Positions 2,328 to 13,498 of a DNA stretch of 50,848 nt are shown here, one piece after another. Source of the stretch: Saprospiraceae bacterium (GTDB lineage: Bacteria; Bacteroidota; Bacteroidia; Chitinophagales; Saprospiraceae); NCBI GenBank assembly GCA_025056735.1, contig JANWVR010000031.1:1-50848 (forward strand). The letters run 5' to 3'. Both the position numbers and the translations under genes were made by a program. The stretch's first letter is position 1. Every line of letters starts with the position of its first letter. The notes under the pieces were generated by a model. It worked only from the letters and a program-made list of their open reading frames with translations, was not told the origin of the DNA and ran no database searches.

Positions 2328-4904
2328 TTAAAACTCCGTAGACAGACGAATGCGCACGCCCCATTTCGTTACAAACGGATGATCCGTGTAGGTAAATCGC
2401 CGAAGCAGGTCAATGCGAATGATGCTCAGGATGTTGGCCACACCTACGCTGCCCTCCACGTAGGGCTGCCGTTCTAAGGAATACGTCAAGGGCACACCAT
2501 TCTCATAGGTGGGCAGATGCAGTAATCCGTTGTTTGCATTGGGACGGTTACGTTCGCTCAAACCGCCCCAAAGAGCTTTAACTGTGAACACCTCGCGCCA
2601 TTTGAGCCGGCGCAGCAGCGGAATACGCCCTAAAAACACGCCGCCAAAATTGTGATAATAGCTTACAGCAGCATAGCGGTCGCTGATAAACTCCATGAAA
2701 TTCATCAGGTTGTACGACTCGCGCTGGTACGTGTACGTCTGGTTGGCCCTGTGAATGATCAGCATCGGATAGGGCGCCTGCCCAAACACCCGTCCGCCTT
2801 CCACGATGGCGTAACCTCGCCCGAGGATAGGATAAAAGAATGCTTTGCGCAAAGTAGCGCGTGCAATATGGTAATTGTACTCGCTGCCCAACACACCGCG
2901 GATACCCGCATCGTAGGCCAGCTCCAAAATCGGGTATTTCGTCAGGATGGGCGTCCGGTAGTTCGGACCGTCGTAGAACTTCTCATTGGGCGCATAGCGC
3001 AGGCGGATGCCTACTTCGCTGGCCATGAGGTCGGTTTTATAGCGCGTTTCTCCCTGCTCGGTGTAATCAAAGAGCAAAATACCCCCCGGGTTTTGGCGCG
3101 TATTGCGCAGTATGCAACGCCAGGAAAAGCCGCTGAGTAGCTCTCGCCGATACTCGATACCGTAAGTGCTTTTATAAATCATGCGGTTGTTCGGGCCGCG
3201 CTTGAGCGACAGGAAGAGGTTATCTTCGTTGACGAACTGAAGCCCCTGCCCCGGAATTTCAATATCGTTCTGATGCCATAGCCGCAGATGGTGAATCGGG
3301 AAGAGCCGCACCTTTTCCGGTCCCAGCGAATAGGTGATAGCGCCCATGCCCTTCCAGCGCTGATCGCCGAAGCCGTAGGCCGCATAGCCTTCGAGCGCTA
3401 AACGTTTGCTGAAGTCGTAGTTGGTGCGCCCACCAAAGCGCAATCGCAATCCCTCTATGGGATTGAAGCTATAAAAAACATTTGCCGGGCCGATGTCCAC
3501 ACCTCCTATCGCCGTGTACCCCTCGAAGAGAAAGCGCACGCTCTTTACGATACGCTTAAACGAGCGATCCCTGTTGAGGCTATCCATCGTTTGCTGCAGA
3601 CCCGCCTCGCTGCGCGTCAGTGCTATGTGGCGGTGCTGCGCCCAGAATCGTTCGTCGCGCAGCAGAACGCCCGTATCGCGCACAACTGCTTGCAACGGAG
3701 CAAACAGCGAGTCCGCAACAGGCTCGTTGATGCGATACCCACGATACGTCGTTACTTTATTACCCAGCAACGAACGCGCTTTGGAACCCTTCAAGAGACC
3801 AAATTCAATGGATATTTCATCGCGGCTCAACATGAGCGCCTGCCTCTCCCCCGCTGAATATACCCAAGAGTATTCCTGCCTTAGCTGGATGTCGTTCACC
3901 CAGTTGAGGTTGATCTCGGGCGGCACGCCCACTTCGATGCGGCGCAGCGCGTACGTGGAGTCTATGGCAATCCACAAATGGCCTGTGAAGGCTACATCCG
4001 TCTTCACTCGAGGCGCAAAATACAGGCGCACACAAGGCGTACCCTCCACTAATGTTGTGTCCTGAATATAAAAACGGTAGACGTTCGGAGAAATCGGGTT
4101 GAGCGGGCCGACGAAGCGCGTATTCAGCAGCTCGATGACACCGTCGTAAAAATTGGCGTCTGTGTATAGAGCTTCAATAAAATTGGAGATGCCCATTGCA
4201 TTAAAGGCATCCTCAAAAATTACATGTCGTTCGCCGCGCACATACTCGCGCCGCGTACCTGTAGCGCCACGGTAATACACGTCGGCGAGCAACTCGCGCA
4301 TATAGAGCAGGACGTTGACCTTATTGTTGACCTGGTTGGTGTCTGCGTTGTCGAAAATGACCTTGAAGCGCCGCAACAGAAGGTTATTGCGGGTTTTTTC
4401 GGTAATATTGCTCAGCGAAAAGCCGATCTTTTCATACTTTTCATATTGGTAATACGAAAGAGCTTCCGGCCGGTTTTTATTCTTATTTTCAATGGCTTTG
4501 CGAATAAGCGTCACTGCTGGATTGTCCTTGTTGCGGTAATGCTCAACGCGGACAGTTACCTCCTGTAGCACTGAGGAGGCTTCGCGCAAGGAGATAAGCA
4601 AATCATGATCTTCTCCTACACGCAAAGCAATTTCTTGAGGCGCATATCCTACGTACGTAATGCGCAGCGTCAGCGGGCCGGGCGCCGTTGTGCTGAGCGC
4701 AAACCGGCCATCTGCATCGGCTCGGGCCCCCGTGTTGGCCTCCACTATTCGGGCAGTAGCAAAAGGGAGCGGTTCTTCCGTTAGCGCATCTATAACCCGC
4801 CCGCGCACCGTTGTGAACTGAAGCGACTGGCCGGCAGCAGCAAAAGGAAGCAGAAGAAGGGATAAGATTAAAGTTAAATAAGCGAAAGATGGATTTTTCC
4901 GCAT
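2328..4904 (-). CDS. DUF5686 outer-membrane protein with carboxypeptidase-regulatory-like domain
   Basis: An 858-residue exported protein of unknown biochemical role. A signal peptide covers residues 1-25. It is followed by a CarboxypepD_reg-like beta-sandwich (about 30-115, with GRVIDALTEEPLPFATARI and ITYVGYAPQE), as in the N-terminal plugs of TonB-dependent receptors. The rest matches the DUF5686 family of Bacteroidota, including the YYQYEKYEKIGFSLSNI stretch, and ends in alternating aromatic beta strands expected of an outer-membrane barrel. The last residue is Phe, as in many barrel proteins. Its ATG lies only 37 bp after the gtrA stop with no obvious terminator between, so it is probably the last gene of the ceramide operon. 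That position makes a role in surface lipid handling worth considering, but the sequence does not show a function. Confidence 0.85.
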   Translation of the reverse strand: MRKNPSFAYLTLILSLLLLPFAAAGQSLQFTTVRGRVIDALTEEPLPFATARIVEANTGARADADGRFALSTTAPGPLTLRITYVGYAPQEIALRVGEDHDLLISLREASSVLQEVTVRVEHYRNKDNPAVTLIRKAIENKNKNRPEALSYYQYEKYEKIGFSLSNITEKTRNNLLLRRFKVIFDNADTNQVNNKVNVLLYMRELLADVYYRGATGTRREYVRGERHVIFEDAFNAMGISNFIEALYTDANFYDGVIELLNTRFVGPLNPISPNVYRFYIQDTTLVEGTPCVRLYFAPRVKTDVAFTGHLWIAIDSTYALRRIEVGVPPEINLNWVNDIQLRQEYSWVYSAGERQALMLSRDEISIEFGLLKGSKARSLLGNKVTTYRGYRINEPVADSLFAPLQAVVRDTGVLLRDERFWAQHRHIALTRSEAGLQQTMDSLNRDRSFKRIVKSVRFLFEGYTAIGGVDIGPANVFYSFNPIEGLRLRFGGRTNYDFSKRLALEGYAAYGFGDQRWKGMGAITYSLGPEKVRLFPIHHLRLWHQNDIEIPGQGLQFVNEDNLFLSLKRGPNNRMIYKSTYGIEYRRELLSGFSWRCILRNTRQNPGGILLFDYTEQGETRYKTDLMASEVGIRLRYAPNEKFYDGPNYRTPILTKYPILELAYDAGIRGVLGSEYNYHIARATLRKAFFYPILGRGYAIVEGGRVFGQAPYPMLIIHRANQTYTYQRESYNLMNFMEFISDRYAAVSYYHNFGGVFLGRIPLLRRLKWREVFTVKALWGGLSERNRPNANNGLLHLPTYENGVPLTYSLERQPYVEGSVGVANILSIIRIDLLRRFTYTDHPFVTKWGVRIRLSTEF

Positions 4905-4941: not shown

Positions 4942-5337
4942 TCAAGATTCGTTGGATGGGGCGAAAACGAAGTAGCGATTGAATAAAAAAATCAGGTACC
5001 ACGCCAACAGCGCCACGCTCACGCGCGAAAACCAAGGCGACAGGCCCATCTCGTCGCAGAGCAACCACACGCCGCCCACGTTCAGAGCCATGCCCAACAG
5101 GACGCCCATGCCGTAGCGGACGCCCAGTTTTTGCAAGGGCGTGGCCCTGTGCAGGCCAAACACCCAGTGCTTTTGAATGTAAAAGGCCACCACTGCGCTG
5201 ACCGACCAGCCTACAAACGTCGAACCGCCCGCATGCGCCGTAGCCAGAAAGAGTACGTAAAAAAGCCCAAAATCCACCACCGTCGAGCTGAGCGAACTCA
5301 ACGCGTATTTGAAAACTAAAAAGCCTTTCGAGCGCAT
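4942..5337 (-). CDS. GtrA-family small membrane protein
   Basis: A 131-residue inner-membrane protein with four predicted transmembrane segments and the GtrA-like pattern: early FVKYALSSLSSTVVDF-like segment (here FKYALSSLSSTVVDFG), then FYIQKHWVFG, and a C-terminal FNRYFVF. GtrA proteins are thought to move undecaprenyl-linked sugars across the inner membrane in O-antigen glucosylation and related systems. It starts 3 nt after the PgpA stop and precedes the DUF5686 gene by 37 nt, so it sits in the ceramide operon. By inference it may help translocate a glycosylated lipid or lipid-linked sugar used for the sphingolipid headgroup. No glycosyltransferase lies beside it in the window. Confidence 0.83.
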   Translation of the reverse strand: MRSKGFLVFKYALSSLSSTVVDFGLFYVLFLATAHAGGSTFVGWSVSAVVAFYIQKHWVFGLHRATPLQKLGVRYGMGVLLGMALNVGGVWLLCDEMGLSPWFSRVSVALLAWYLIFLFNRYFVFAPSNES

Positions 5338-5340
5338 ACG

Positions 5341-5817
5341 TTAATTCCATAACCACCAAAAAACTTGCCACGATAGCCAGGCGTAGATTCCTGCCAATAT
5401 GTCATCCAGCATTACGCCCCAGCCTCCTGGCAGGCGTTCTAAAGAACGAATGCCCAGTGGCTTGAATATATCGAACAATCGAAACGACGCAAAGATAACC
5501 GCCCAGGCCTCCCATTCGACCGGCGCGACCCATAGAGCGACCCACATGCCGACCATTTCGTCCAATACTACTGGTGAAGGGTCTTTGCCCCACAAGGCCT
5601 CCGCGCGGGGGATGCCCACAATGCCCACGACGAAACCCGCGGCGATCGCCAGCGCCAGTACGGGTTGATAAAAAACGGGCGCTGCCACGACCAGCCCGCC
5701 CGCCAGCAGCCAGGCCAGCGCTGCACCCCACGTGCCCGGCGCAACAGGCAGCCTGCCGGCGCCAAAACCGCAAAGCACCCACAGCACGCCGTCAAAACGT
5801 CGTTTAGAGCCAGCCAT
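5341..5817 (-). CDS. pgpA: Phosphatidylglycerophosphatase A family lipid phosphatase
   Basis: A 158-residue membrane protein of the PgpA family, which removes the phosphate from phosphatidylglycerol phosphate at the inner membrane. Family motifs are visible: GAGRLPVAPGTWGA near the N-terminus, VVLDEMVGMW with the conserved acidic residues, and GGWGVMLDDILAGI near the C-terminus. The frame is open to 5865, but ATG at 5817 gives the family start (MAGSKRRFDG) and a 14-nt overlap with the end of the upstream SDR gene. It lies inside the sphingolipid operon, followed 3 nt later by gtrA. It may simply make phosphatidylglycerol, or it may act on a phosphorylated sphingolipid intermediate; the context suggests the second but does not prove it. 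Confidence 0.85.
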   Translation of the reverse strand: MAGSKRRFDGVLWVLCGFGAGRLPVAPGTWGAALAWLLAGGLVVAAPVFYQPVLALAIAAGFVVGIVGIPRAEALWGKDPSPVVLDEMVGMWVALWVAPVEWEAWAVIFASFRLFDIFKPLGIRSLERLPGGWGVMLDDILAGIYAWLSWQVFWWLWN

Positions 5818-6796
5818 GTTGGCGATACCATTTGACCGTCTCTTCCATGCCCCGGTATAAGTCATACTGAGGCTGGAAGTTCAGGAGGCTAAAGGTTTCC
5901 GAGGTGTCGCAGTGCCAGTTGGCGCCGCCCAATTCGCGCAGTTTTTCCCGGTTGAGGGCCGGCATTTTGCCCTGCCACTTACCTGCCCACTCGCTCAACG
6001 CGGCAATGGCCTGCACGCCTGCCAACGGCAAGCGCAGGCGCAGCGTGCGGCGGCCCAGCGCCGTGCGCACAGCTTCGCCTAAGTCGTCGGTGGTGTAATC
6101 GCGCCCATCAGCAGCGATGTATTTACGCCCCTGCAGCCCGCGCTCCAAAGCGGCCAACATTAGCGCCACTAAGTCGCTGACGTAGATGAAGCTGGCGCGC
6201 TGCGGTGTCAGTCCGATGTATAGCTCCAGCCCGTGGTTGACCAGCTGGACAAACTGGAACAGGTCGCGATCGCGCGGGCCGAAAACGGCCGTAGGCTGCA
6301 CCACCACCCAAGGGAGCCGTCCCGTCAGGGCTTCTAAGTGTTCTTCGGCGGCCCGTTTGCTGGCTCCGTACGTTGTGACGGGCATGGGCGGCTGGTCGGG
6401 CCGCACACGCTCAGCGTTCGTAGCTGGCCCTAAGGCTGCCAGGCTGCTCAAGAACAAAAAACACTGCGGGCGCAAATCCTCCTCCACTAAAGCCTCAGCC
6501 AAATGCCGGGTATAGTCAGTGTTTATGCGAAAGTAGTCCTCACTCCTAAGCGCCTTGGTTGCGCCAGCAATGTGCGCCACGTAGTCGAAGCGTCCTTGCT
6601 GGCGCAGCATCTCGGCCAATGCTGGTGGCGTATGGTAGGGCAGATGGACGAAGCGCAAACGCCTGTCCTGCAAATAGGTGCGGTCGCTGTTGGGCCGCAC
6701 AGCTGCCGTTACTTCCCACCCCCGCGCCAGCGCCGCGTCGGTCAGCGCGCTGCCGATGAAGCCGTTGGCGCCCGTAATGAGCAGTCGAGGACTCAT
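5804..6796 (-). CDS. Extended SDR, candidate bacterial ceramide/3-ketosphinganine reductase (CerR-like)
   Basis: A 330-residue NAD(P)-dependent epimerase/dehydratase-type short-chain dehydrogenase. The Rossmann glycine motif is GANGFIG at residues 9-15, and the catalytic set is Ser118 with Tyr143 and Lys147 (YGASK). In bacteria making ceramide by the route described in Caulobacter, an extended SDR of this annotation (CerR) reduces the 3-keto group; a Bacteroides SDR is reported to reduce 3-ketosphinganine. I use these from memory. Its position, with the upstream desaturase stop and this start sharing ATGA (6793-6796) in an operon with serine palmitoyltransferase, makes that role likely. The reaction is inferred from context; the SDR fold itself is clear. 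It could instead modify a sugar nucleotide for a headgroup. Confidence 0.82.
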   Translation of the reverse strand: MSPRLLITGANGFIGSALTDAALARGWEVTAAVRPNSDRTYLQDRRLRFVHLPYHTPPALAEMLRQQGRFDYVAHIAGATKALRSEDYFRINTDYTRHLAEALVEEDLRPQCFLFLSSLAALGPATNAERVRPDQPPMPVTTYGASKRAAEEHLEALTGRLPWVVVQPTAVFGPRDRDLFQFVQLVNHGLELYIGLTPQRASFIYVSDLVALMLAALERGLQGRKYIAADGRDYTTDDLGEAVRTALGRRTLRLRLPLAGVQAIAALSEWAGKWQGKMPALNREKLRELGGANWHCDTSETFSLLNFQPQYDLYRGMEETVKWYRQHGWL

Positions 6797-7800
6797 GCGG
6801 TTTTCTCGATAAGCGCCACATCGGGCGTGGACTCATCGCTCAAGGGCACGCCGCCGCGGTCTTTGCGCACAATGCGCGAAAAGAGGCTAATCTCTTGGCT
6901 GAACAAGAAGCGCAGTAGCAGCAGCGTATACGACTTATGGTATTTTAATGACTGATAAAATTCCGGTGCCATGGCCCGTAGTTTGGGTAAATTGTTCCAT
7001 GGCACGGAGGGCATGTCGTGGTGCTCATTGTGGTAGCCCACGTTCAGGTTGATGGTGTTAAGTGGCCCATAATAGCTGTACGTCTCCTGGTCGGGGTCGA
7101 GCACCAGATAGTGTTCCTGTATCCAGCGCGCGCCCAACGGATGCAGACCGATAGAAAACATTAGGCTCAGACCCAGATAGGCAAACGCCTGCCAGCCCCA
7201 AAAATAAACCACGGCCACATCGAAGGCCAGCTGCACCACCACGTTCAGGACAACCCAGCGGTCTATCAGCATAGCCTCCTTGCAGCGCAACACGCGCACC
7301 GCCTGAAAAAACGGATAGAACAGCAACCACAATGCCTTGCCAATGAAATAGTTATTAATAAGGCGTGCTTCCCAGCGCGATGGCAGGTCGGCATCCAGTT
7401 CGTGCACGCCCTGAAAAGCGTGGTGCTTGAGGTGGTAATTTTTGAAGGAAATGGCAGAGGGGATGATGGTTGGCAGGTTGGCCACGATACCCGCGTAAAT
7501 ATTCCACTCCCGTTTGCGAAAGATCAGGTGGTGCGCCGCTTCGTGAATACACACAAAAAGCACATGCGCGGGGAAAGCCCCCACAAACCACGCCAACCCT
7601 ACGATCCACCACCCGCTTTGCTCGCGCAGCAAATAAGCCATGGCGAGCTGAAAGGCTACACAGACGAGGATAATCAGGGCCGTCCATGGGTTTTTACCGA
7701 TGAGATGACGCGCTTCGGGATGGGCTTCTAAAATAGCTCTCGTGCGCTGACGGTGCGGCTCCGGGCCGGTTTTGTAGCGAAAATCGTTATGACGCTCCAT
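6793..7800 (-). CDS. Sphingolipid delta-4 desaturase-like membrane di-iron protein (DES1/DEGS-like)
   Basis: A 335-residue membrane fatty acid desaturase. Three histidine boxes are present: HEAAHH at 86-91, HLKHH at 123-127 and HNEHH at 257-261. Beyond these, the protein carries stretches I recognise from eukaryotic dihydroceramide delta-4 desaturase: NDFRYKTGPEPH at the N-terminus (compare DFEWVYTDQPH), ANLPTIIP before FKNYHLKHH, GLHPLGARWIQEHY, and the diagnostic ETYSYYGPLN followed by NVGYHNEHHDMPSVP. DES1 introduces the 4,5-trans double bond of sphingosine into dihydroceramide. The neighbours are sphingolipid genes, which supports the same substrate here. ATG at 7800 was chosen (14-nt overlap with the acyltransferase gene); an ATG at 7818 adds six residues. 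DES1 enzymes can also hydroxylate C4, so a phytoceramide product is the main alternative. Confidence 0.88.
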   Translation of the reverse strand: MERHNDFRYKTGPEPHRQRTRAILEAHPEARHLIGKNPWTALIILVCVAFQLAMAYLLREQSGWWIVGLAWFVGAFPAHVLFVCIHEAAHHLIFRKREWNIYAGIVANLPTIIPSAISFKNYHLKHHAFQGVHELDADLPSRWEARLINNYFIGKALWLLFYPFFQAVRVLRCKEAMLIDRWVVLNVVVQLAFDVAVVYFWGWQAFAYLGLSLMFSIGLHPLGARWIQEHYLVLDPDQETYSYYGPLNTINLNVGYHNEHHDMPSVPWNNLPKLRAMAPEFYQSLKYHKSYTLLLLRFLFSQEISLFSRIVRKDRGGVPLSDESTPDVALIEKTA

Positions 7801-8929
7801 GTTCAAGAGTTTTCTCATATAGGCGATATCGCCGATAAACGCGCGCGCCGATGTGCTCCAAGGCGCGGTTCATCAGGGTGTTGTTTTCTAATATCCAGGA
7901 GGCTTCGCCTTCGACAATCCCTCGTTGAACGGCTGCTTGATACGTACGCACATAAAAACACGTATCTATGCCCAGACGGCGATATTCTTTGAGCGTACCC
8001 AGCGCAATCACCCGGGCGGTGCGCACGCGCCGAAGCCCAAACAACAACCGAAAGATACCAAACGGGAACAAGCGGCCCCGCCTCAGTCGGATGAGGATCT
8101 CATTGATATTGGGAACCATGAGCGACACGCCAATCGTCTGGCCGTCTTTTTCCGCAAAGAAGACCAGTTTTGGGTCAATCACCGGGCGCAAATCCCGGGC
8201 TATCTGACGAATTTCGGCATCCGTCATCGGCACAAAGCCGGTATTCTCCGCCCATGAAGCGTTGTACACCGGCAAAAACTTATTCAGTTCCTCCTGAAAA
8301 TGCCGCATATTTATTTTCCGAATGACGATGCCTCGTTGTGCCAATCGCTCTTCCAGTTGCCGCGCCATTTCCATAACAGAGGCCGGCATGCCCTCCCGCG
8401 TCAACCAATAACACAGCAAATCTACGTGTTTAACAAAACCCAAACCCTCCAAAAGCGCAGCGTAATACGGCGCATTGTACGTCATCATCACCATGGGCGG
8501 CCGATCGAAGTTTTCTACCAGCAAGCCACACGTTTCATTGGTAGAGAAGTTGGCCGGCCCAATGACTTTTTTCACTCCTTGCTGGCGTAACCACTGTTCA
8601 GCGGCGTTGAGCAGTGCCGCGGCTGCACGTTCGTCGTTCATCACGTCAAAAAAGCCAAAGAAGCCCTCCCGGCGCCCAGTAAAGGCAATATGGTTGCGGT
8701 TCAGGATGGCTGCAATGCGACCCATAGGCCGCCCATTATCAAAGGCCATGAAGTACTCCGCCGTCGAATGCAGGAAAAAAGGCGACTTCTTCGGGTTGAG
8801 CAAGGCCTCTTGCTCCATGTAGAGCATGGGCACGTAGTTGGGATCGCCGACGTACAGGTCGTGCGGGAAATCAATAAAGGCGCGCAGTTGCCGGCGGCTG
8901 GCCGGGTCTATCCGCTCTACACGTATCAT
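7787..8929 (-). CDS. GNAT-fold acyltransferase, candidate bacterial ceramide synthase
   Basis: A 380-residue protein of the acyl-CoA N-acyltransferase (GNAT-like) superfamily. It has two GNAT-like halves: an N-terminal region with FFGFFDVMND and GPANFSTNETCGLLVENFD, and a C-terminal region with an acetyltransferase-like core (LVFFAEKDGQTIGVSLMVP, then LGTLKEYRRLGID). There is no transmembrane segment and no similarity to eukaryotic LASS/TLC ceramide synthases. In Caulobacter the N-acylation step of ceramide synthesis was assigned to a GNAT-type protein (bCerS), which I recall rather than checked. The gene is translationally coupled to serine palmitoyltransferase (ATGA, 8926-8929) and overlaps the desaturase gene, so an N-acyltransferase acting on the long-chain base is the natural reading. 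The exact substrate is inference. Confidence 0.78.
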   Translation of the reverse strand: MIRVERIDPASRRQLRAFIDFPHDLYVGDPNYVPMLYMEQEALLNPKKSPFFLHSTAEYFMAFDNGRPMGRIAAILNRNHIAFTGRREGFFGFFDVMNDERAAAALLNAAEQWLRQQGVKKVIGPANFSTNETCGLLVENFDRPPMVMMTYNAPYYAALLEGLGFVKHVDLLCYWLTREGMPASVMEMARQLEERLAQRGIVIRKINMRHFQEELNKFLPVYNASWAENTGFVPMTDAEIRQIARDLRPVIDPKLVFFAEKDGQTIGVSLMVPNINEILIRLRRGRLFPFGIFRLLFGLRRVRTARVIALGTLKEYRRLGIDTCFYVRTYQAAVQRGIVEGEASWILENNTLMNRALEHIGARVYRRYRLYEKTLEHGAS

Positions 8930-10152
8930 ACCACCGTCGCCTCTACTTCGTCCATCTGTCTGTCTAAGATGCCCAAGCCTTTGGCGTGGCGATAGAGGAT
9001 GTCCACTGCGCGCTCAATTTGCTCAAACGTGTGGGTAGCCATCAGCGAGAACCGGATGAGCGACTCCTCGCTGGGCACCGCCGGCGACACTACCGGGTTG
9101 ATGAACACCCCATCGTCAAAAGCCAGCCTCGATAGCATGAAGGTTTTCATATTATTGCGCACATAAAGCGGAATAATTGGCGATTGCGTGTTCCCAATCT
9201 CGAAGCCGGCTTCGCGGAAAAGCTTCATCGAGTAGTGCGTGTTTTCCCACAGGCGGTCAATGCGCTCGGGTTCCTCTTTCAAAATTTCCAAAGCAGCCAG
9301 CACGCTGGCAGCGGCAGCAGGCGTCATGCTGGCGCTGAAAATGAGCGAACGCGAGTGGTGCTTCAAGTATTCAATCACCGAATGCGAGGAGGCGATAAAC
9401 CCACCTAACGACGCTAACGATTTGCTAAACGTGCCAATCTGGATGTCCACCGCGTCGTGCAGGCCAAAATGCGAGCCCGTGCCGATGCCCAACTCCCCGA
9501 TGACGCCGATGGAATGCGCGTCGTCGCATACTACAACGCAATTATACTGACGGGCAATACGCACAATGTCAGGCAGCGGTGCAATGTCGCCCTCCATGCT
9601 GAAAATGCCGTCCACAACGATAAACTTCAAGGCCTCTTCAGGCGCCCGAGCGGCTAAGCGCTCTAAGTCCATCATGTCGTTGTGGCTGAATTTCTGTATT
9701 TTATTGGTGAAGCAAAGCCGCGTAGCATCAATAATAGAGGCATGCACGCGCTCGTCAATGAAGATGTAGTCGTGTCGGCCCACTAAAGGCGATAGGGCGC
9801 CTAAGTTGGCCTGAAAGCCCGTGCTGTACAACAGCACTGCCTCGCGCTTCAGGTACTCCGCCAACGCCTCTTCTAATTCGATGTGGATACTGAGCGTGCC
9901 GTTCAGGAAACGCGAGCCAGCGCATCCGCTGCCGTAGCGATCTACCGCTGCCTTTGCTGCCTCCTTAATCCGCGGGTGGTTGGTCAGGCCCAGATACGAG
10001 TTCGAGCCAAACATCAAAACCGGCTTGCCGCCAATAAGCACCTCAGTATCCTGTTCCGACTGGATGACGCGGAAATACGGATATACTCCTGCCTGCCGGG
10101 TTTCCTCAGCTGCAGTATAAGACTCCGTTCGAGCGCGTAGGACTGGATTCAT
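8926..10152 (-). CDS. spt: Serine palmitoyltransferase (alpha-oxoamine synthase family)
   Basis: A 408-residue PLP enzyme that condenses L-serine with a long acyl thioester to 3-ketosphinganine, the entry step of sphingolipid synthesis; bacterial forms are soluble homodimers. The PLP lysine is Lys244 in GTFSKSLASLGGFI, the sequence pattern of serine palmitoyltransferases rather than the GTLGKA type of 2-amino-3-ketobutyrate ligase or BioF. Other family marks are NSYLGL near residue 51, GSGCAGSRFLNGT at 74-86 and the PLP-binding CDDAHSIG at 209-216. Length is normal for the bacterial enzyme. It starts inside the stop of the upstream hydroxylase gene (ATGA, 10149-10152) and its own stop overlaps the next start, so stoichiometry with its neighbours is probably set by coupled translation. 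Confidence 0.94.
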   Translation of the reverse strand: MNPVLRARTESYTAAEETRQAGVYPYFRVIQSEQDTEVLIGGKPVLMFGSNSYLGLTNHPRIKEAAKAAVDRYGSGCAGSRFLNGTLSIHIELEEALAEYLKREAVLLYSTGFQANLGALSPLVGRHDYIFIDERVHASIIDATRLCFTNKIQKFSHNDMMDLERLAARAPEEALKFIVVDGIFSMEGDIAPLPDIVRIARQYNCVVVCDDAHSIGVIGELGIGTGSHFGLHDAVDIQIGTFSKSLASLGGFIASSHSVIEYLKHHSRSLIFSASMTPAAAASVLAALEILKEEPERIDRLWENTHYSMKLFREAGFEIGNTQSPIIPLYVRNNMKTFMLSRLAFDDGVFINPVVSPAVPSEESLIRFSLMATHTFEQIERAVDILYRHAKGLGILDRQMDEVEATVV

Positions 10153-10838
10153 AACGATATTTTTCGTTTAAAAAATGAAGTGAAAAACGGGAAAATCCCC
10201 ATCGAATTGGATGGCGATTTTTTCCTCAACACAAAGGTAGTTTTAAAAACAAAATCCCACAACGGACTGCTGACTCCAAAACCTTTATCAGGTTGCTGGA
10301 AATGATGTAGCATGTGGTGTTGCTTCAGACGCTGCCATAGAGGATGCTTCCAGTGCAGGTGATGTATGGCATAATGGGCCATATCGTAGCCTAAATAGCC
10401 CAACAAAAAGCCGGCGAAAAAAGGATAGACAGAGGGCACGCCCAACAGCCACCGAAATAAATTAAAGAATAACACTGCTAACGGAAGGCTCACCACTGGC
10501 GGCATCACTAAGCGCAACCGGTCGTTCGGATAGTCGTGATGCACCCCGTGGAGAATAAAATGAATTCGAGCCCCCCAGCGACCCGGCGGCGTCCAATGAA
10601 AAAGAAAGCGATGCAGCGTATACTCCGCAAACGTCCATGCTAATAAACCTCCTATCAGCCAACCCACCGACGGCCATCGAGCTTCCGATAGCCATAACAA
10701 CCAGCCGACAACCGGCAAGTATAACACCAACGGTACACTGAAATGCACTTTAGACAGTGCCTCCATCCAGTCCTTCTCAAACATGCGAACCGAGTTTTCG
10801 CTACTCGAGACGAATAGCTGCTGACGTGTTCCGTTCAT
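10149..10838 (-). CDS. Fatty acid 2-hydroxylase-like membrane di-iron protein (FA2H/Scs7 type, no cytochrome b5 domain)
   Basis: A 229-residue member of the fatty acid hydroxylase/sterol desaturase superfamily with about four membrane segments. The histidine clusters follow the FA2H/Scs7p layout: HRFLFH at 76-81, HFILHGVHH at 93-101, HYAIHH at 155-160 and HHMLHH at 174-179. The text around them is also FA2H-like: FAEYTLHRFLFHW, LHGVHHDYPND, GYLGYDMAHY and GFGVSSPLWDFVF. FA2H adds the 2-hydroxyl to the N-acyl chain of ceramides. The N-terminal cytochrome b5 domain of the animal and yeast enzymes is absent, so electrons must come from a separate carrier. It is the first gene of the ceramide operon and is coupled to spt by an ATGA overlap. 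Carotenoid hydroxylase is a less likely alternative because of context. Confidence 0.87.
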   Translation of the reverse strand: MNGTRQQLFVSSSENSVRMFEKDWMEALSKVHFSVPLVLYLPVVGWLLWLSEARWPSVGWLIGGLLAWTFAEYTLHRFLFHWTPPGRWGARIHFILHGVHHDYPNDRLRLVMPPVVSLPLAVLFFNLFRWLLGVPSVYPFFAGFLLGYLGYDMAHYAIHHLHWKHPLWQRLKQHHMLHHFQQPDKGFGVSSPLWDFVFKTTFVLRKKSPSNSMGIFPFFTSFFKRKISL

Positions 10839-11043
10839 TCCTAAAGACTTTTAACTGGTGATTGTCCTAAACCAACGATACTCCAGAACCCCTCTCACGG
10901 CAACAACTACCCACGCAATCGCTTGCAGCCGTCAAGGGAGGAAGAGGAGAATGGGCAAACTCAATAAGCGAGACCTTTAAGTGGCTTGATTTTGTAAAGT
11001 CTTTTGTCTTAGAGCACGCCGGATTAAATACAAAATACGTCTG

Positions 11044-11051
11044 CAAAGTTA
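11044..11051 (-). promoter_or_regulatory. -7 box for the ceramide operon
   Basis: Minus-strand TAACTTTG, an exact match to TAnnTTTG, in the 243-bp gap between recR and the hydroxylase gene. The predicted start near 11040 leaves a leader of about 200 nt, long for this genome, in which I found no recognisable riboswitch. No clear -33 element was seen. Confidence 0.5.
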
Positions 11052-11081
11052 CGGCGCCTTCAGACATATGCCATCAGGCTA

Positions 11082-11687
11082 TCATTTTGAATACGGCAAC
11101 CGCGCCAGGATGGAACGCGCCAGCGTAATTTCGTCGGCATATTCCAATTGGCCGCCAAAGGCTACTCCTCGCGCAATAGCGCTGACCAATACGCCCGAGG
11201 GTGCTAGCTGCCGTGAAAGATAAAAGGCCGTCGTTTCGCCTTCGATGGTCGGGCTAATAGCCATGATAACCTCTTTGATTTCGCCTTCCGACACGCGCTG
11301 AAGCAGAGACGTTATGTTGAGCTGGTCCGGCCCGACTCCTTCCATCGGCGAAATAATGCCGCCCAGCACGTGGTAAAGCCCGCGATACTGGCCCGTGTCC
11401 TCGATGGCCATCAAGTCCCGAATATTTTCCACCACACATACCAAGGCCCGGTCGCGCCGAGGATCGGCGCAAATGCGGCACACTTCAGCATCCGAAAGAT
11501 TGTGGCAGATACGGCATTCCCGAATGCCCGCGCGCATAGCCAGCAGAGCTGCTGCAAAGCGCTCCGTCGTCGCCGGCTCCTGCTTGAGCAAATGCAGCAC
11601 CAAGCGCAGCGCCGTCTTGCGCCCAATACCGGGCAGGCTGGCAAACGCCTCAACGGCTTTCTCGATGAGCTGAGAGGAGAAATTCAT
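11082..11687 (-). CDS. recR: Recombination mediator RecR
   Basis: A 201-residue protein that works with RecO (and RecF) to load RecA on gapped DNA coated with SSB. It has the N-terminal helix-hairpin-helix (SLPGIGRKTALRL, about 17-29), a four-cysteine zinc finger at Cys58, 61, 70 and 73, and a Toprim domain starting with VCVVENIRDLMAIE. The length matches the family. The open frame reaches 11795, but the extra N-terminus is proline/arginine/glycine-rich and unlike RecR; ATG at 11687 fits. A perfect -7 box ends only 8 nt before this ATG, implying a very short leader. Confidence 0.96.
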   Translation of the reverse strand: MNFSSQLIEKAVEAFASLPGIGRKTALRLVLHLLKQEPATTERFAAALLAMRAGIRECRICHNLSDAEVCRICADPRRDRALVCVVENIRDLMAIEDTGQYRGLYHVLGGIISPMEGVGPDQLNITSLLQRVSEGEIKEVIMAISPTIEGETTAFYLSRQLAPSGVLVSAIARGVAFGGQLEYADEITLARSILARLPYSK

Positions 11688-11695
11688 ACGGTTGG

Positions 11696-11703
11696 CAAAG
11701 GTA
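11696..11703 (-). promoter_or_regulatory. -7 box immediately upstream of recR
   Basis: Minus-strand TACCTTTG, exact match to TAnnTTTG, ending 8 nt before the recR ATG. With the start point about 4 nt past the final G, the leader would be about 5 nt, nearly leaderless. Confidence 0.6.
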
Positions 11704-11820
11704 CGCCGCCAGCGCCCTCCCCAAACCTTCCCTTTGCGCTTACCTCCTACAAGAAAAAAGAACGGCGGCCCTCCTCTTACAGGGGGCCGCCGCATGGAAA
11801 ACTACCCTGTCATGTCCTGT

Positions 11821-12669
11821 CTATTTCTTAAGCGGAATGCTCAGCACCGGAATGTCCGAATGGTTGGCCATATCTTCCGTCAGGCTACCAAAGAGCAGGT
11901 GCGAAAGCCCTTGCCGCTGGTGTGTGCCCATTGCAATGATGTCCGCTTGCCGTTCGTGAGCTACTTCCAGAATGGCCAACTCTTCGTTGAATGTATTGCC
12001 CCCAATAAGCACCGAGCAGCGCTGCAGCCCGGCTTCCCTCGTCATCTCGTGGGCCTTTTTCTCGATCGCATGGTTGTTGACCAGCCCCAGCGGGTCGTTC
12101 AAATACAAAACCCAAACGTCAAATAAAAAATACGCCTGCCACTCTGCTAACCATTCAAATACCCGCGCCTGATCGGGTCGAAGCGTACTGGGAACCACCA
12201 CCGTTTTCCAGTGAAATGCCCGTGTGCTCTCAGGTACCGCCAGCACTGCACATGGCGCCGTGCGAATGACTTTCTCTGTATTGGAGCCCAGGAAAAACTC
12301 TACTGCCCCTGTAGCGCCTTTTGTGCCCATCACCACCAGATCTACTGCGTCTTCCTCGGCAATACGTCGGATGGCTTGATGCAAAAAACCCTCCTCTACC
12401 GCACTTTCGAAGGGCACTTCCGCAAAGCCTTCCGTCTCCGATAGCTCCTTTTTTAGCGCATGCAACGCCTCCGCTGCATTCTCCCGATAACCCTCCAAAT
12501 CAAATGCCTGCGGCACACTGTAATCGGGCAATGGCGGTGTATAGGCAATAGCCGTATTAACATGGAGCAGCGTTACTCGCGCTTTCGTCTCGCGTGCGAT
12601 AATAGCCGCTACTCGTGCGGCATGTCTGGCATTTGCCGAAAAGTCGGTCGGAACGAGAATTTTTTTCAT
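11821..12669 (-). CDS. Tandem-domain universal stress protein
   Basis: A 282-residue cytoplasmic protein with two UspA domains. The first starts MKKILVPTDFSANA and ends with the nucleotide-binding pattern GTKGATGAVEFFLGSNTEKVI, fitting the ATP-binding G-2X-G-9X-G-S/T rule. The second domain has only a degenerate version (GTHQRQGLSHLLFGSL), so probably one site binds ATP. Such proteins modulate stress survival; the target is unknown here. The open frame extends to 12717, but ATG at 12669 gives the normal UspA N-terminus. A -7-like box lies 17 nt upstream. It stands between recR and truA with no sign of a functional link. Confidence 0.9.
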   Translation of the reverse strand: MKKILVPTDFSANARHAARVAAIIARETKARVTLLHVNTAIAYTPPLPDYSVPQAFDLEGYRENAAEALHALKKELSETEGFAEVPFESAVEEGFLHQAIRRIAEEDAVDLVVMGTKGATGAVEFFLGSNTEKVIRTAPCAVLAVPESTRAFHWKTVVVPSTLRPDQARVFEWLAEWQAYFLFDVWVLYLNDPLGLVNNHAIEKKAHEMTREAGLQRCSVLIGGNTFNEELAILEVAHERQADIIAMGTHQRQGLSHLLFGSLTEDMANHSDIPVLSIPLKK

Positions 12670-12685
12670 AGATATAAAAGTGAAA

Positions 12686-12693
12686 CAAAGGTG
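12686..12693 (-). promoter_or_regulatory. -7-like box for the universal stress gene
   Basis: Minus-strand CACCTTTG, one mismatch from TACCTTTG, ending 16 nt before the ATG at 12669. The same variant stands before folC. Confidence 0.42.
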
Positions 12694-12748
12694 CTCAGCG
12701 TCCTTTGCTCGCTTCAATGATGTCGGTCAGAAACTCGCATGAGTGATA

Positions 12749-13498
12749 TCAGAGTACGGGATAAGGATACCGGACATCCGTGAGGGCCAGCCCTTGTGCC
12801 GGTGCGCTCAGAACCTTGGGCAGCGGCTTCTGCTCCTCCAGCGCCTGCTGCACAGCCTCGAACGAAAGCGTTCCGTGCCCTACGGCCATGCAGGTTCCTA
12901 CAATGAGGCGCACCATGCCGCGCAAAAAGCGATTCGCCGCAATGTGGAACACCAGCATACTACCGTCGGATAGACGCTCCCAGCGCGCAAAACGTACGAC
13001 ACACCGGTAATGGTCGTTGCCTCCCTCGGTTTTACAAAAGGGCAGAAAAGCCTCGTATTGAGGCAGCAAATCGGCCACGGCCTGGAGTACACCTATGTTT
13101 ATATGGGCTGCGCGTGGGTGCAGCCATGCTGTTTCTACGGCGAAAGGGTCTTTTCGCAGCGCGATGTGATAATGGTAATGCCGCTCTATGGCATCGTAGC
13201 GTGCATGGGCCTCCGGAGGCATGGCCTTCACGGTATAAACCGCGATATCCTCAGGCAGTATGCCGTTGATGTTTTGCAAAAACGTCGCCGGCAGGTCGCC
13301 GTTGGCATCAAAATGAGCCACATAGTAGCGTGCGTGCACCCCGGCATCCGTCCGCCCACAGCCTACCACTTCGATGGGCTGGCGCAACAACACCGACAGC
13401 GCCTTCTCCAACACCTCCTGTACGCTGAGCGCGTTGGGCTGACGCTGCCAGCCCGCGTAACGAGTGCCGCGATAGGCCATAGAAAGAAAATAGCGCAT
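12749..13498 (-). CDS. truA: tRNA pseudouridine(38-40) synthase TruA
   Basis: A 249-residue enzyme that isomerises uridines 38-40 in the tRNA anticodon stem-loop. The catalytic aspartate is Asp51 in GCGRTDAGVHA, and the N-terminus MRYFLSMAYRGTRYAGWQRQPNALSVQE matches the family (start motif split here across residues 1-28). FRYQMVR-type RNA-binding residues appear as NRFLRGMVRLIVG. The open frame begins at 13534, but ATG at 13498 gives the conserved N-terminus. Confidence 0.95.
   Translation of the reverse strand: MRYFLSMAYRGTRYAGWQRQPNALSVQEVLEKALSVLLRQPIEVVGCGRTDAGVHARYYVAHFDANGDLPATFLQNINGILPEDIAVYTVKAMPPEAHARYDAIERHYHYHIALRKDPFAVETAWLHPRAAHINIGVLQAVADLLPQYEAFLPFCKTEGGNDHYRCVVRFARWERLSDGSMLVFHIAANRFLRGMVRLIVGTCMAVGHGTLSFEAVQQALEEQKPLPKVLSAPAQGLALTDVRYPYPVL

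Follow-up and report, generated by a model that had tools for sequence, protein, structure and literature searches.

Can a bacterium assemble, from one compact set of genes, a ceramide carrying both a 4,5 double bond in its long-chain base and a hydroxyl group on its amide-linked chain? The question is raised by seven minus-strand open reading frames in a 50,848-nucleotide stretch of DNA from an uncultured Saprospiraceae bacterium (contig JANWVR010000031.1 of assembly GCA_025056735.1; hereafter the window). Read from 10838 down to 4942 they encode FA2H, SPT, GNAT, DES, SDR, PgpA and GtrA family proteins, which the original prediction, made from the sequence alone, had taken for a self-contained route to 2-hydroxy-sphingosine ceramides. 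All seven are present where predicted, with family matches far above chance:

10149..10838, minus strand, FA2H/Scs7-type fatty acid 2-hydroxylase (FA2H), 229 aa, PF04116
8926..10152, minus strand, serine palmitoyltransferase (SPT), 408 aa, NF047600
7787..8929, minus strand, GNAT-family N-acyltransferase, candidate bCerS type (GNAT), 380 aa, PF00583
6793..7818, likely start 7800, minus strand, DES1-type sphingolipid desaturase (DES), 341 aa, PF08557 and PF00487
5804..6796, minus strand, extended SDR, candidate 3-keto reductase of CerR type (SDR), 330 aa, PF01370
5341..5865, likely start 5817, minus strand, PgpA-family phosphatase (PgpA), 174 aa, PF04608
4942..5337, minus strand, GtrA-family membrane protein (GtrA), 131 aa, PF04138

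We lean, by a little, towards a self-contained bacterial route to 2-hydroxy, 4,5-unsaturated ceramide. The gene set and its conservation speak for this part of the prediction, and the genomic context of DES fits more than one possible substrate.

The desaturase matched PF08557 (Lipid_DES, 'Sphingolipid Delta4-desaturase') over residues 11-45 with 41.1 bits against a cut-off of 23, and PF00487 at E 5e-28; PF08557 was found in none of 14 named control genomes. Three His boxes of a di-iron site (HEAAH, HLKHH and HNEHH) are present, and their His residues do not vary across an alignment of 36 bacterial DES homologues chosen from the loci examined. These features bear out the predicted DES1-type identity and, judged by sequence, the protein is a true Lipid_DES-domain enzyme whose likeness to eukaryotic DES1 (DEGS1) is one of domain and motif. 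Introduction of a 4,5 double bond into dihydroceramide would be the corresponding reaction, both as to position and as to substrate. The AlphaFold2 model of DES (pLDDT 88.7) was closest in Foldseek to a chain of the Chlamydomonas FtsHi complex (E 6e-6, TM 0.62), followed by FtAlkB (E 1.3e-3, TM 0.52) and, weakly, stearoyl-CoA desaturase (E 1e-2, TM 0.31). A sequence search of the PDB gave nothing credible, with one chance match only, and a search of plasmids gave no match. Assignment of DES as a carotenoid ketolase was rejected, the best carotenoid model scoring 26 bits against a cut-off of 350.

The hydroxylase matched PF04116 in Pfam (E 5e-20) and its sole PDB matches at E<=1 were two yeast Scs7 entries (E 2.8e-29 and 5.5e-29), while no NCBIfam model matched at E<=1e-3. 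Four His motifs (start residues 76, 93, 155 and 174) align with those of Scs7 (4zr1), and the 12 motif His residues (76, 81, 93, 97, 100, 101, 155, 159, 160, 175, 178, 179) are invariant in 8 of 8 rows of the FA2H alignment. The predicted FA2H-type 2-hydroxylase was thereby recovered, and the enzyme would be expected to hydroxylate the N-acyl chain at C-2. Its 229 residues contain PF04116 only and lack the N-terminal cytochrome b5 domain of the animal, fungal and protist forms, as plant FAH does (PMC10002949). The view that 2-hydroxylation is a eukaryote-like modification only did not hold, given that CC_0202, a DesA family protein, is cited as the N-acyl hydroxylase of Caulobacter (PMC11324152) and that myxobacterial FA2H-type enzymes are described as functional (PMC10002949). 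2-Hydroxylated sphingolipids are also described in Flavobacterium and Sphingomonas (PMC10002949), and the ceramide phosphoethanolamine of both periodontal bacteria studied in PMC9324278 carries a 2-hydroxyl on the fatty acid.

Among 395 sampled Bacteroidota genomes, high-scoring FA2H relatives (E<=1e-60, a threshold chosen after two score groups had appeared) were present in 85, rising to 115 at E<=1e-20. They were found in 24 of the 40 DES-positive genomes and in 61 of the 355 DES-negative ones, kinship being uncorrected. SPT exceeded its cut-off in 18 genomes of the sample; nine of these also had FA2H, and in eight of the nine both genes lay on the same strand no more than 10 kb apart. A second and more distant FA2H-like gene is present elsewhere in the genome from which the window derives (G000:C87, locus L212, 4609-5298), scoring 196 bits with the FA2H alignment model; the 10-kb stretch around it yielded no further sphingolipid gene.

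The predicted serine palmitoyltransferase is of the serine and not the cysteate type, with an NF047600 score of 647 bits over the equivalog cut-off of 640 and the motifs HASIID, DDAHS, FSKSLAS and RFSLMATHT at residues 137, 210, 242 and 367. Its PDB scores, 511 bits to SPT 3a2b and 227 bits to cysteate acyltransferase (CFAT/SulA) 28eh, ruled out CFAT as the identity of the operon AOS. The Pfam match of GNAT is weak (PF00583, E 1e-5), and a sequence search of the PDB gave none. The gene lies close to SPT in most SPT loci examined, L189 and L192 being exceptions. SDR matched PF01370 at E 1.5e-34. By likeness to the published descriptions, the two proteins are candidate counterparts of the Caulobacter enzymes CerS and CerR (PMC11324152, PMC11087976).

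The genes are tightly packed, with 4-base overlaps at the FA2H/SPT, SPT/GNAT and DES/SDR joints and a gap of 3 bases between PgpA and GtrA. The GNAT/DES and SDR/PgpA overlaps are longer, at 14 bases each when translation is taken to start from the inner ATGs (7800 and 5817). A recR gene (NCBIfam) lies 243 bases upstream of the operon, and the leader contains one further feature:

11043..11052, minus strand, conserved box GTAACTTTGC, probably the operon's -7 promoter element

This box is identical in four of four aligned leaders, those of the window and of related loci L059, L060 and L061 (L062 and L087 were left out of the alignment), and the rest of the leader has diverged. TAACTTTG occurs once in the 50.8-kb window with both strands counted; TAnnTTTG, which we take to be the Bacteroidota -7 motif, occurs 29 times. 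A consensus scan for promoters and terminators gave matches at chance level only. The tight operon of the original prediction was thus found; its single transcript we infer from gene packing and the conserved upstream box.

A scan of genome contigs with DES yielded 60 loci. Other operon genes adjoin DES in eight of these: five (L059, L060, L061, L062 and L087) have all seven genes, and three are Verrucomicrobial (L112, L113 and L117). In the remaining 52, some of which are short contigs, no gene of the seven turned up next to DES. L059, L060 and L061 keep the gene order of the window, a conservation in related genomes which the original prediction had proposed to look for. L087 (1-11984) bears the title of a Thermoanaerobaculia metagenome-assembled genome; with recR upstream and FA2H-SPT-GNAT-DES-SDR arranged as in Saprospiraceae at 64-81% identity, it is probably a misbinned contig.

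A second phylum contains similar clusters. DES was found at E<=1e-30 in 4 of 288 Verrucomicrobiota genomes, accompanied by FA2H and GNAT in all four and by an SPT-like gene in three (L112, L181 and L182, not L183). The order in L112, L113 and L117 is DES, FA2H, SPT-like gene, CDP-alcohol transferase, GNAT, CDP-alcohol transferase. In L112 the two CDP-alcohol transferases (10260-13052) resemble phosphatidylinositol phosphate (PIP) or archaetidylinositol-phosphate synthases below cut-offs; an inositol synthase is encoded on a different contig of that genome, perhaps pointing to an inositol head group.

In the pathway suggested by these assignments, SPT would condense serine with a fatty acyl thioester, GNAT acting as a bCerS-type enzyme would attach the amide-linked acyl chain, and SDR as a CerR-type enzyme would reduce the 3-keto group. 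DES, a predicted di-iron membrane enzyme, would desaturate the long-chain base at the 4,5 position, and FA2H, a di-iron enzyme of Scs7 type, would hydroxylate C-2 of the amide-linked chain, giving a 2-hydroxyacyl-4-sphingenine ceramide. These last two modifications are known chiefly from eukaryotes, animals and fungi above all. A wider version, in which one transcript serves 2-hydroxy-4E-sphingenine ceramide, Verrucomicrobiota assembled a similar cluster in another order and DES and FA2H of this genome may modify sulfonolipids too, one operon thus completing two lipid backbones, is held only tentatively and we rather doubt it as a whole.

Several observations weigh against the ceramide pathway. 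DES stands alone in 20 regions of the phylum sample and in nine other same-family regions examined. PF08557 occurs in 40 of the 395 Bacteroidota genomes, yet SPT exceeds its cut-off in only nine of the 40; 25 have a sub-threshold SPT match of 477-526 bits, a score class common in DES-negative genomes too, and six lack any match exceeding 360 bits. From the 25 sub-threshold genes, four were examined (L187-L190), and all are 46% identical to the window SPT, three of them adjoining GNAT. Among 25 non-Verrucomicrobial DES-positive genomes searched (19 named records and the six lacking an SPT match >360 bits), 23 gave no NF047600 match >360 bits. DES homologues 57-69% identical to that of the window occur in genomes lacking an SPT-class match, and CFAT, 58-64% identical to that of the window's genome, was found in all six such genomes fetched (G391, G371, G249, Hymenobacter arizonensis, Flectobacillus longus and Aquirufa rosea). 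The window's own genome encodes a CFAT (630 bits to 28eh; G000:C107). The L112 SPT-like gene falls below every SPT cut-off, and the structure predicted for FA2H is of poor quality (pLDDT 66). The phylogeny of DES, described below, adds a further point.

The occurrence of close DES homologues in CFAT genomes lacking an SPT-class match means that DES may serve sulfonolipids, and it may act on capnine-type besides sphingoid-type bases. Confidence in an action on ceramide alone is lowered accordingly, but confidence in modification of a long-chain base is not. A rival reading on these lines, in which DES and FA2H modify N-acyl capnine made by CapA-like and CFAT enzymes besides or instead of ceramides, their place in the spt operon being one of regulatory convenience, is in our judgement unlikely. 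It gains from the CFAT gene in the window's genome, which comes directly after a gene matched best in NCBIfam by the cysteate synthase CapA (460 bits, below the cut-off of 600), the pair lying at L005 289-2613 outside the window, and from the known sulfonolipid RIF-1, which bears a 2-hydroxy acyl chain (PMC3463246). However, DES and FA2H are packed with spt and not with capA-capB, FA2H is linked to spt in eight of nine genomes with both, and the gene that accompanies DES and FA2H in the Verrucomicrobial cluster (L112) is nearer in the PDB to SPT structures, its best matches at 258 bits, than to CFAT at 209 bits. The window's genome probably makes sulfonolipids besides sphingolipids, to judge from these genes. 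Its 294-bit AOS turned out to be this CFAT; a third AOS of G249 and G146, considered as a new long-chain-base synthase, was dropped, both proteins being BioF-like by PDB matches and that of G249 also in NCBIfam, below cut-off.

A desaturase of ceramide at the 4,5 position also has to be weighed against an enzyme of the same family with another outcome. The DES protein might be a C4-hydroxylase, or act elsewhere on the chain, with phytoceramide-like or other unsaturated ceramides as products. DEGS2 is described as both desaturase and hydroxylase (PMC10499023), which likewise counts against the preferred assignment, but the PF08557 match and the unvarying His boxes agree with membership of the Delta4 family and no feature specifically suggests hydroxylation; we regard this outcome as quite improbable.

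Phylogenetic analysis bears on how DES came to the operon. In a tree of 81 bacterial proteins (quick method, SH-aLRT support, midpoint-rooted, with long branches; ten of 90 fetched rows were omitted beforehand, by judgement, because they were short or broken, had a doubtful start or nearly duplicated another row), the operon copies from the window, L059-L062 and L087 form one group with support of 97. This group joins Cytophagales copies (97), then Hymenobacter and others (100), and stands apart from the copies in other same-family genomes (L140-L148). The topology fits acquisition of the operon DES from a Cytophagales-like donor. DES would then have reached the operon by a path other than that of the family's other copies, so that its membership of the operon may be recent, the further point against the ceramide pathway mentioned above. 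In the same tree, DES of L095, titled Cellulophaga, is nearly identical to Flectobacillus DES (end branch 0.007), and that genome is probably misnamed.

The last two genes of the set, PgpA (PF04608, E 8e-37) and GtrA (PF04138, E 7e-15), had been counted in the original prediction among the ceramide genes. They look instead like leftovers of the inositol head-group module that relatives possess. One neighbouring gene belongs to the same context:

2328..4904, minus strand, DUF5686/carboxypeptidase-regulatory-like protein, 37 bases past GtrA

This gene, itself scanned with NCBIfam only, is 50% identical to a gene of L062 that hits PF18939 and PF13715, and is possibly the last gene of the operon. 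A DUF5686-like gene occupies the same place in L059, L060, L062, L087 and L205-L211, and was not found at that place in L061. In L062, DES lies inside an operon with inositol synthase (MIPS), PgpA, GtrA and a PIP synthase (360 bits, cut-off 350); MIPS is followed by PgpA there as in L087, which retains MIPS-PgpA-GtrA. Seven of the eight genomes with linked SPT and FA2H, all but the window's own, were examined as L205-L211, and all seven have SPT, GNAT, inositol synthase, DUF5686, PIP synthase and FA2H in this order. GtrA is present in six (not L206) and PgpA, by the search used, in three (L205-L207); SDR lies between GNAT and inositol synthase in L205-L207 and was not found there in L208-L211. 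Both of two PIP synthases checked in this set exceeded the NF052561 cut-off.

By its gene content the operon looks like a derivative of a Bacteroidota sphingolipid-inositol operon of the order spt-cerS-cerR-MIPS-pgpA-gtrA-DUF5686-PIPS-FA2H. Descent from such an operon would have involved addition of DES from a Cytophagales-like source, placement of FA2H at the front, and loss of inositol synthase and PIP synthase with PgpA and GtrA left behind. In Bacteroides thetaiotaomicron the PgpA-like BT_1525, which adjoins BT_1526, is described as most probably a PIP phosphatase, and loss of BT_1524, which has a GtrA motif, left inositol lipids unchanged by thin-layer chromatography (PMC9246714). Since MIPS and PIP synthase are present in relatives and were not found here, PgpA and GtrA are, together with these B. 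thetaiotaomicron roles, best read as remnants, and are probably remnants of the inositol head-group module. A role of PgpA in phosphatidylglycerol synthesis was set aside, one PssA-like CDP-alcohol transferase having been found in the genome and no PGP route seen.

The alternative that the operon, like the ancestral one probably, makes an inositol-type phosphosphingolipid, with PgpA acting on an inositol-phosphate intermediate, draws on L062, where MIPS, PgpA, GtrA and an over-cut-off PIP synthase stand beside the sphingolipid genes, on MIPS-PgpA-GtrA in L087 and on the presumed ancestral order in L205-L211. Nevertheless, MIPS was found in none of five genomes of the lineage (those of the window, G432 and L059-L061), draft assemblies in which a gene may be missed and among which G432 and the L061 genome look like one genome; the control was positive in 6 of 14 named genomes. 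Each of the five has a single CDP-alcohol transferase, that of the window being PssA-like (99 bits, cut-off 107), and we consider continued inositol lipid synthesis by this operon very unlikely. That only saturated dihydroceramides are made, with DES and FA2H acting on free fatty acids, carotenoids or ornithine-type lipids, is hardly credible, for although PF00487 and PF04116 are broad families and DES stands away from sphingolipid genes in the 20 solitary phylum-sample regions, the carotenoid score of DES and the lack of an NCBIfam match for FA2H, both given above, and the clustering of both with sphingolipid genes in two phyla speak against it.

The BT_1522-BT_1527 cluster of B. thetaiotaomicron has PgpA-family, GtrA-family and carboxypeptidase-regulatory-like genes together, as in the window, and the window DUF5686-like gene resembles the BT_1527 homologues mentioned there as carboxypeptidase-regulatory-like; relative L062 also has MIPS and a BT_1523-type PIP synthase (PMC9246714). 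The window differs in that MIPS and PIP synthase were not found and in that its cluster also takes in spt, cerS, cerR, DES and FA2H; the B. thetaiotaomicron SPT, BT_0870, lies outside its inositol-lipid cluster, whereas that of the window lies inside the operon. In Caulobacter (spt, cerR, cerS, acpR, aasR) SPT, an N-acyltransferase and a reductase lead to dihydroceramide, as proposed here, and N-acyl hydroxylation is cited as well, but a dedicated acyl carrier protein (ACP) and acyl-ACP synthetase are used and the excerpted accounts name no DES (PMC11324152, PMC11087976). According to PMC11324152, cerS is always in an operon separate from the other ceramide genes, unlike the cerS-type GNAT of the window, and sphingolipid genes are said not to be close together in Bacteroidota (PMC11334938). 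The joined spt-cerS-inositol operon of the relatives contradicts both statements.

The simplicity of bacterial sphingolipids has been put down largely to a lack of glycosyltransferases and desaturases (2025, PMC12724326). The same source lists a d18:1/24:1 ceramide by liquid chromatography-mass spectrometry from Sphingobacterium detergens; if correctly annotated, it would mean that Bacteroidota were already known to have unsaturated bases. The literature searched, which left most subscription papers outside its scope, contained no account of a DES gene from bacteria or of the present gene set. A sphingolipid-family desaturase inside a bacterial spt operon, with relatives clustered with similar genes in another phylum, offers a gene by which the making of 4,5-unsaturated bases in bacteria can be tested, a compact set with which a bacterial host might produce eukaryote-like ceramides, and a starting point for tracing the origin of eukaryotic DES and FA2H. 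If the wider version given above is true, the bacterial DES and FA2H lineages become a candidate source or early branch of the eukaryotic enzymes.

Flectobacillus loci have a DES 66-69% identical to that of the window, though placed outside any spt operon. Neither of the genomes searched, F. longus and Flectobacillus sp. BAB-3569, has an SPT above cut-off, and CFAT was confirmed in F. longus. Work of Batrakov from 2000 and 1998 on Flectobacillus major and Cyclobacterium marinus is said to have described 2-hydroxyacyl chains and 4(E)-unsaturated bases; should this be right, the chemistry is known in Bacteroidota, with its genes not assigned in the literature covered.

Distant relatives of the operon genes also occur on plasmids. 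A tblastn search of PLSDB with GNAT gave 44 records with homologues, every one below 60% identity, and two of these were examined. YghO from Escherichia coli plasmid NZ_MG591698 is 38% identical across 99% of the GNAT length (BLASTP), a Roseomonas plasmid protein is likewise 38% identical, and these together with Verrucomicrobial proteins align at 37-38% over 370-381 positions. The yghO gene is oppositely transcribed, and its neighbours include an SPT-like aminotransferase (39% to the window SPT), an ACP, an NAD-dependent epimerase and a fatty acyl-AMP ligase; the SDR adjoining the SPT-like gene is 28% identical to that of the window (E 6e-27, BLASTP), and no desaturase or hydroxylase was seen among the 11 features shown. 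The Roseomonas homologue adjoins a nucleotidyltransferase gene and a sterol desaturase family gene, and no SPT is annotated in the plasmid stretch around it. The sterol desaturase family gene (L175, 8204-10125) encodes a protein 26% identical to the window FA2H and overlaps the start of the bCerS-like gene, which itself carries the annotation 'dATP pyrophosphohydrolase'.

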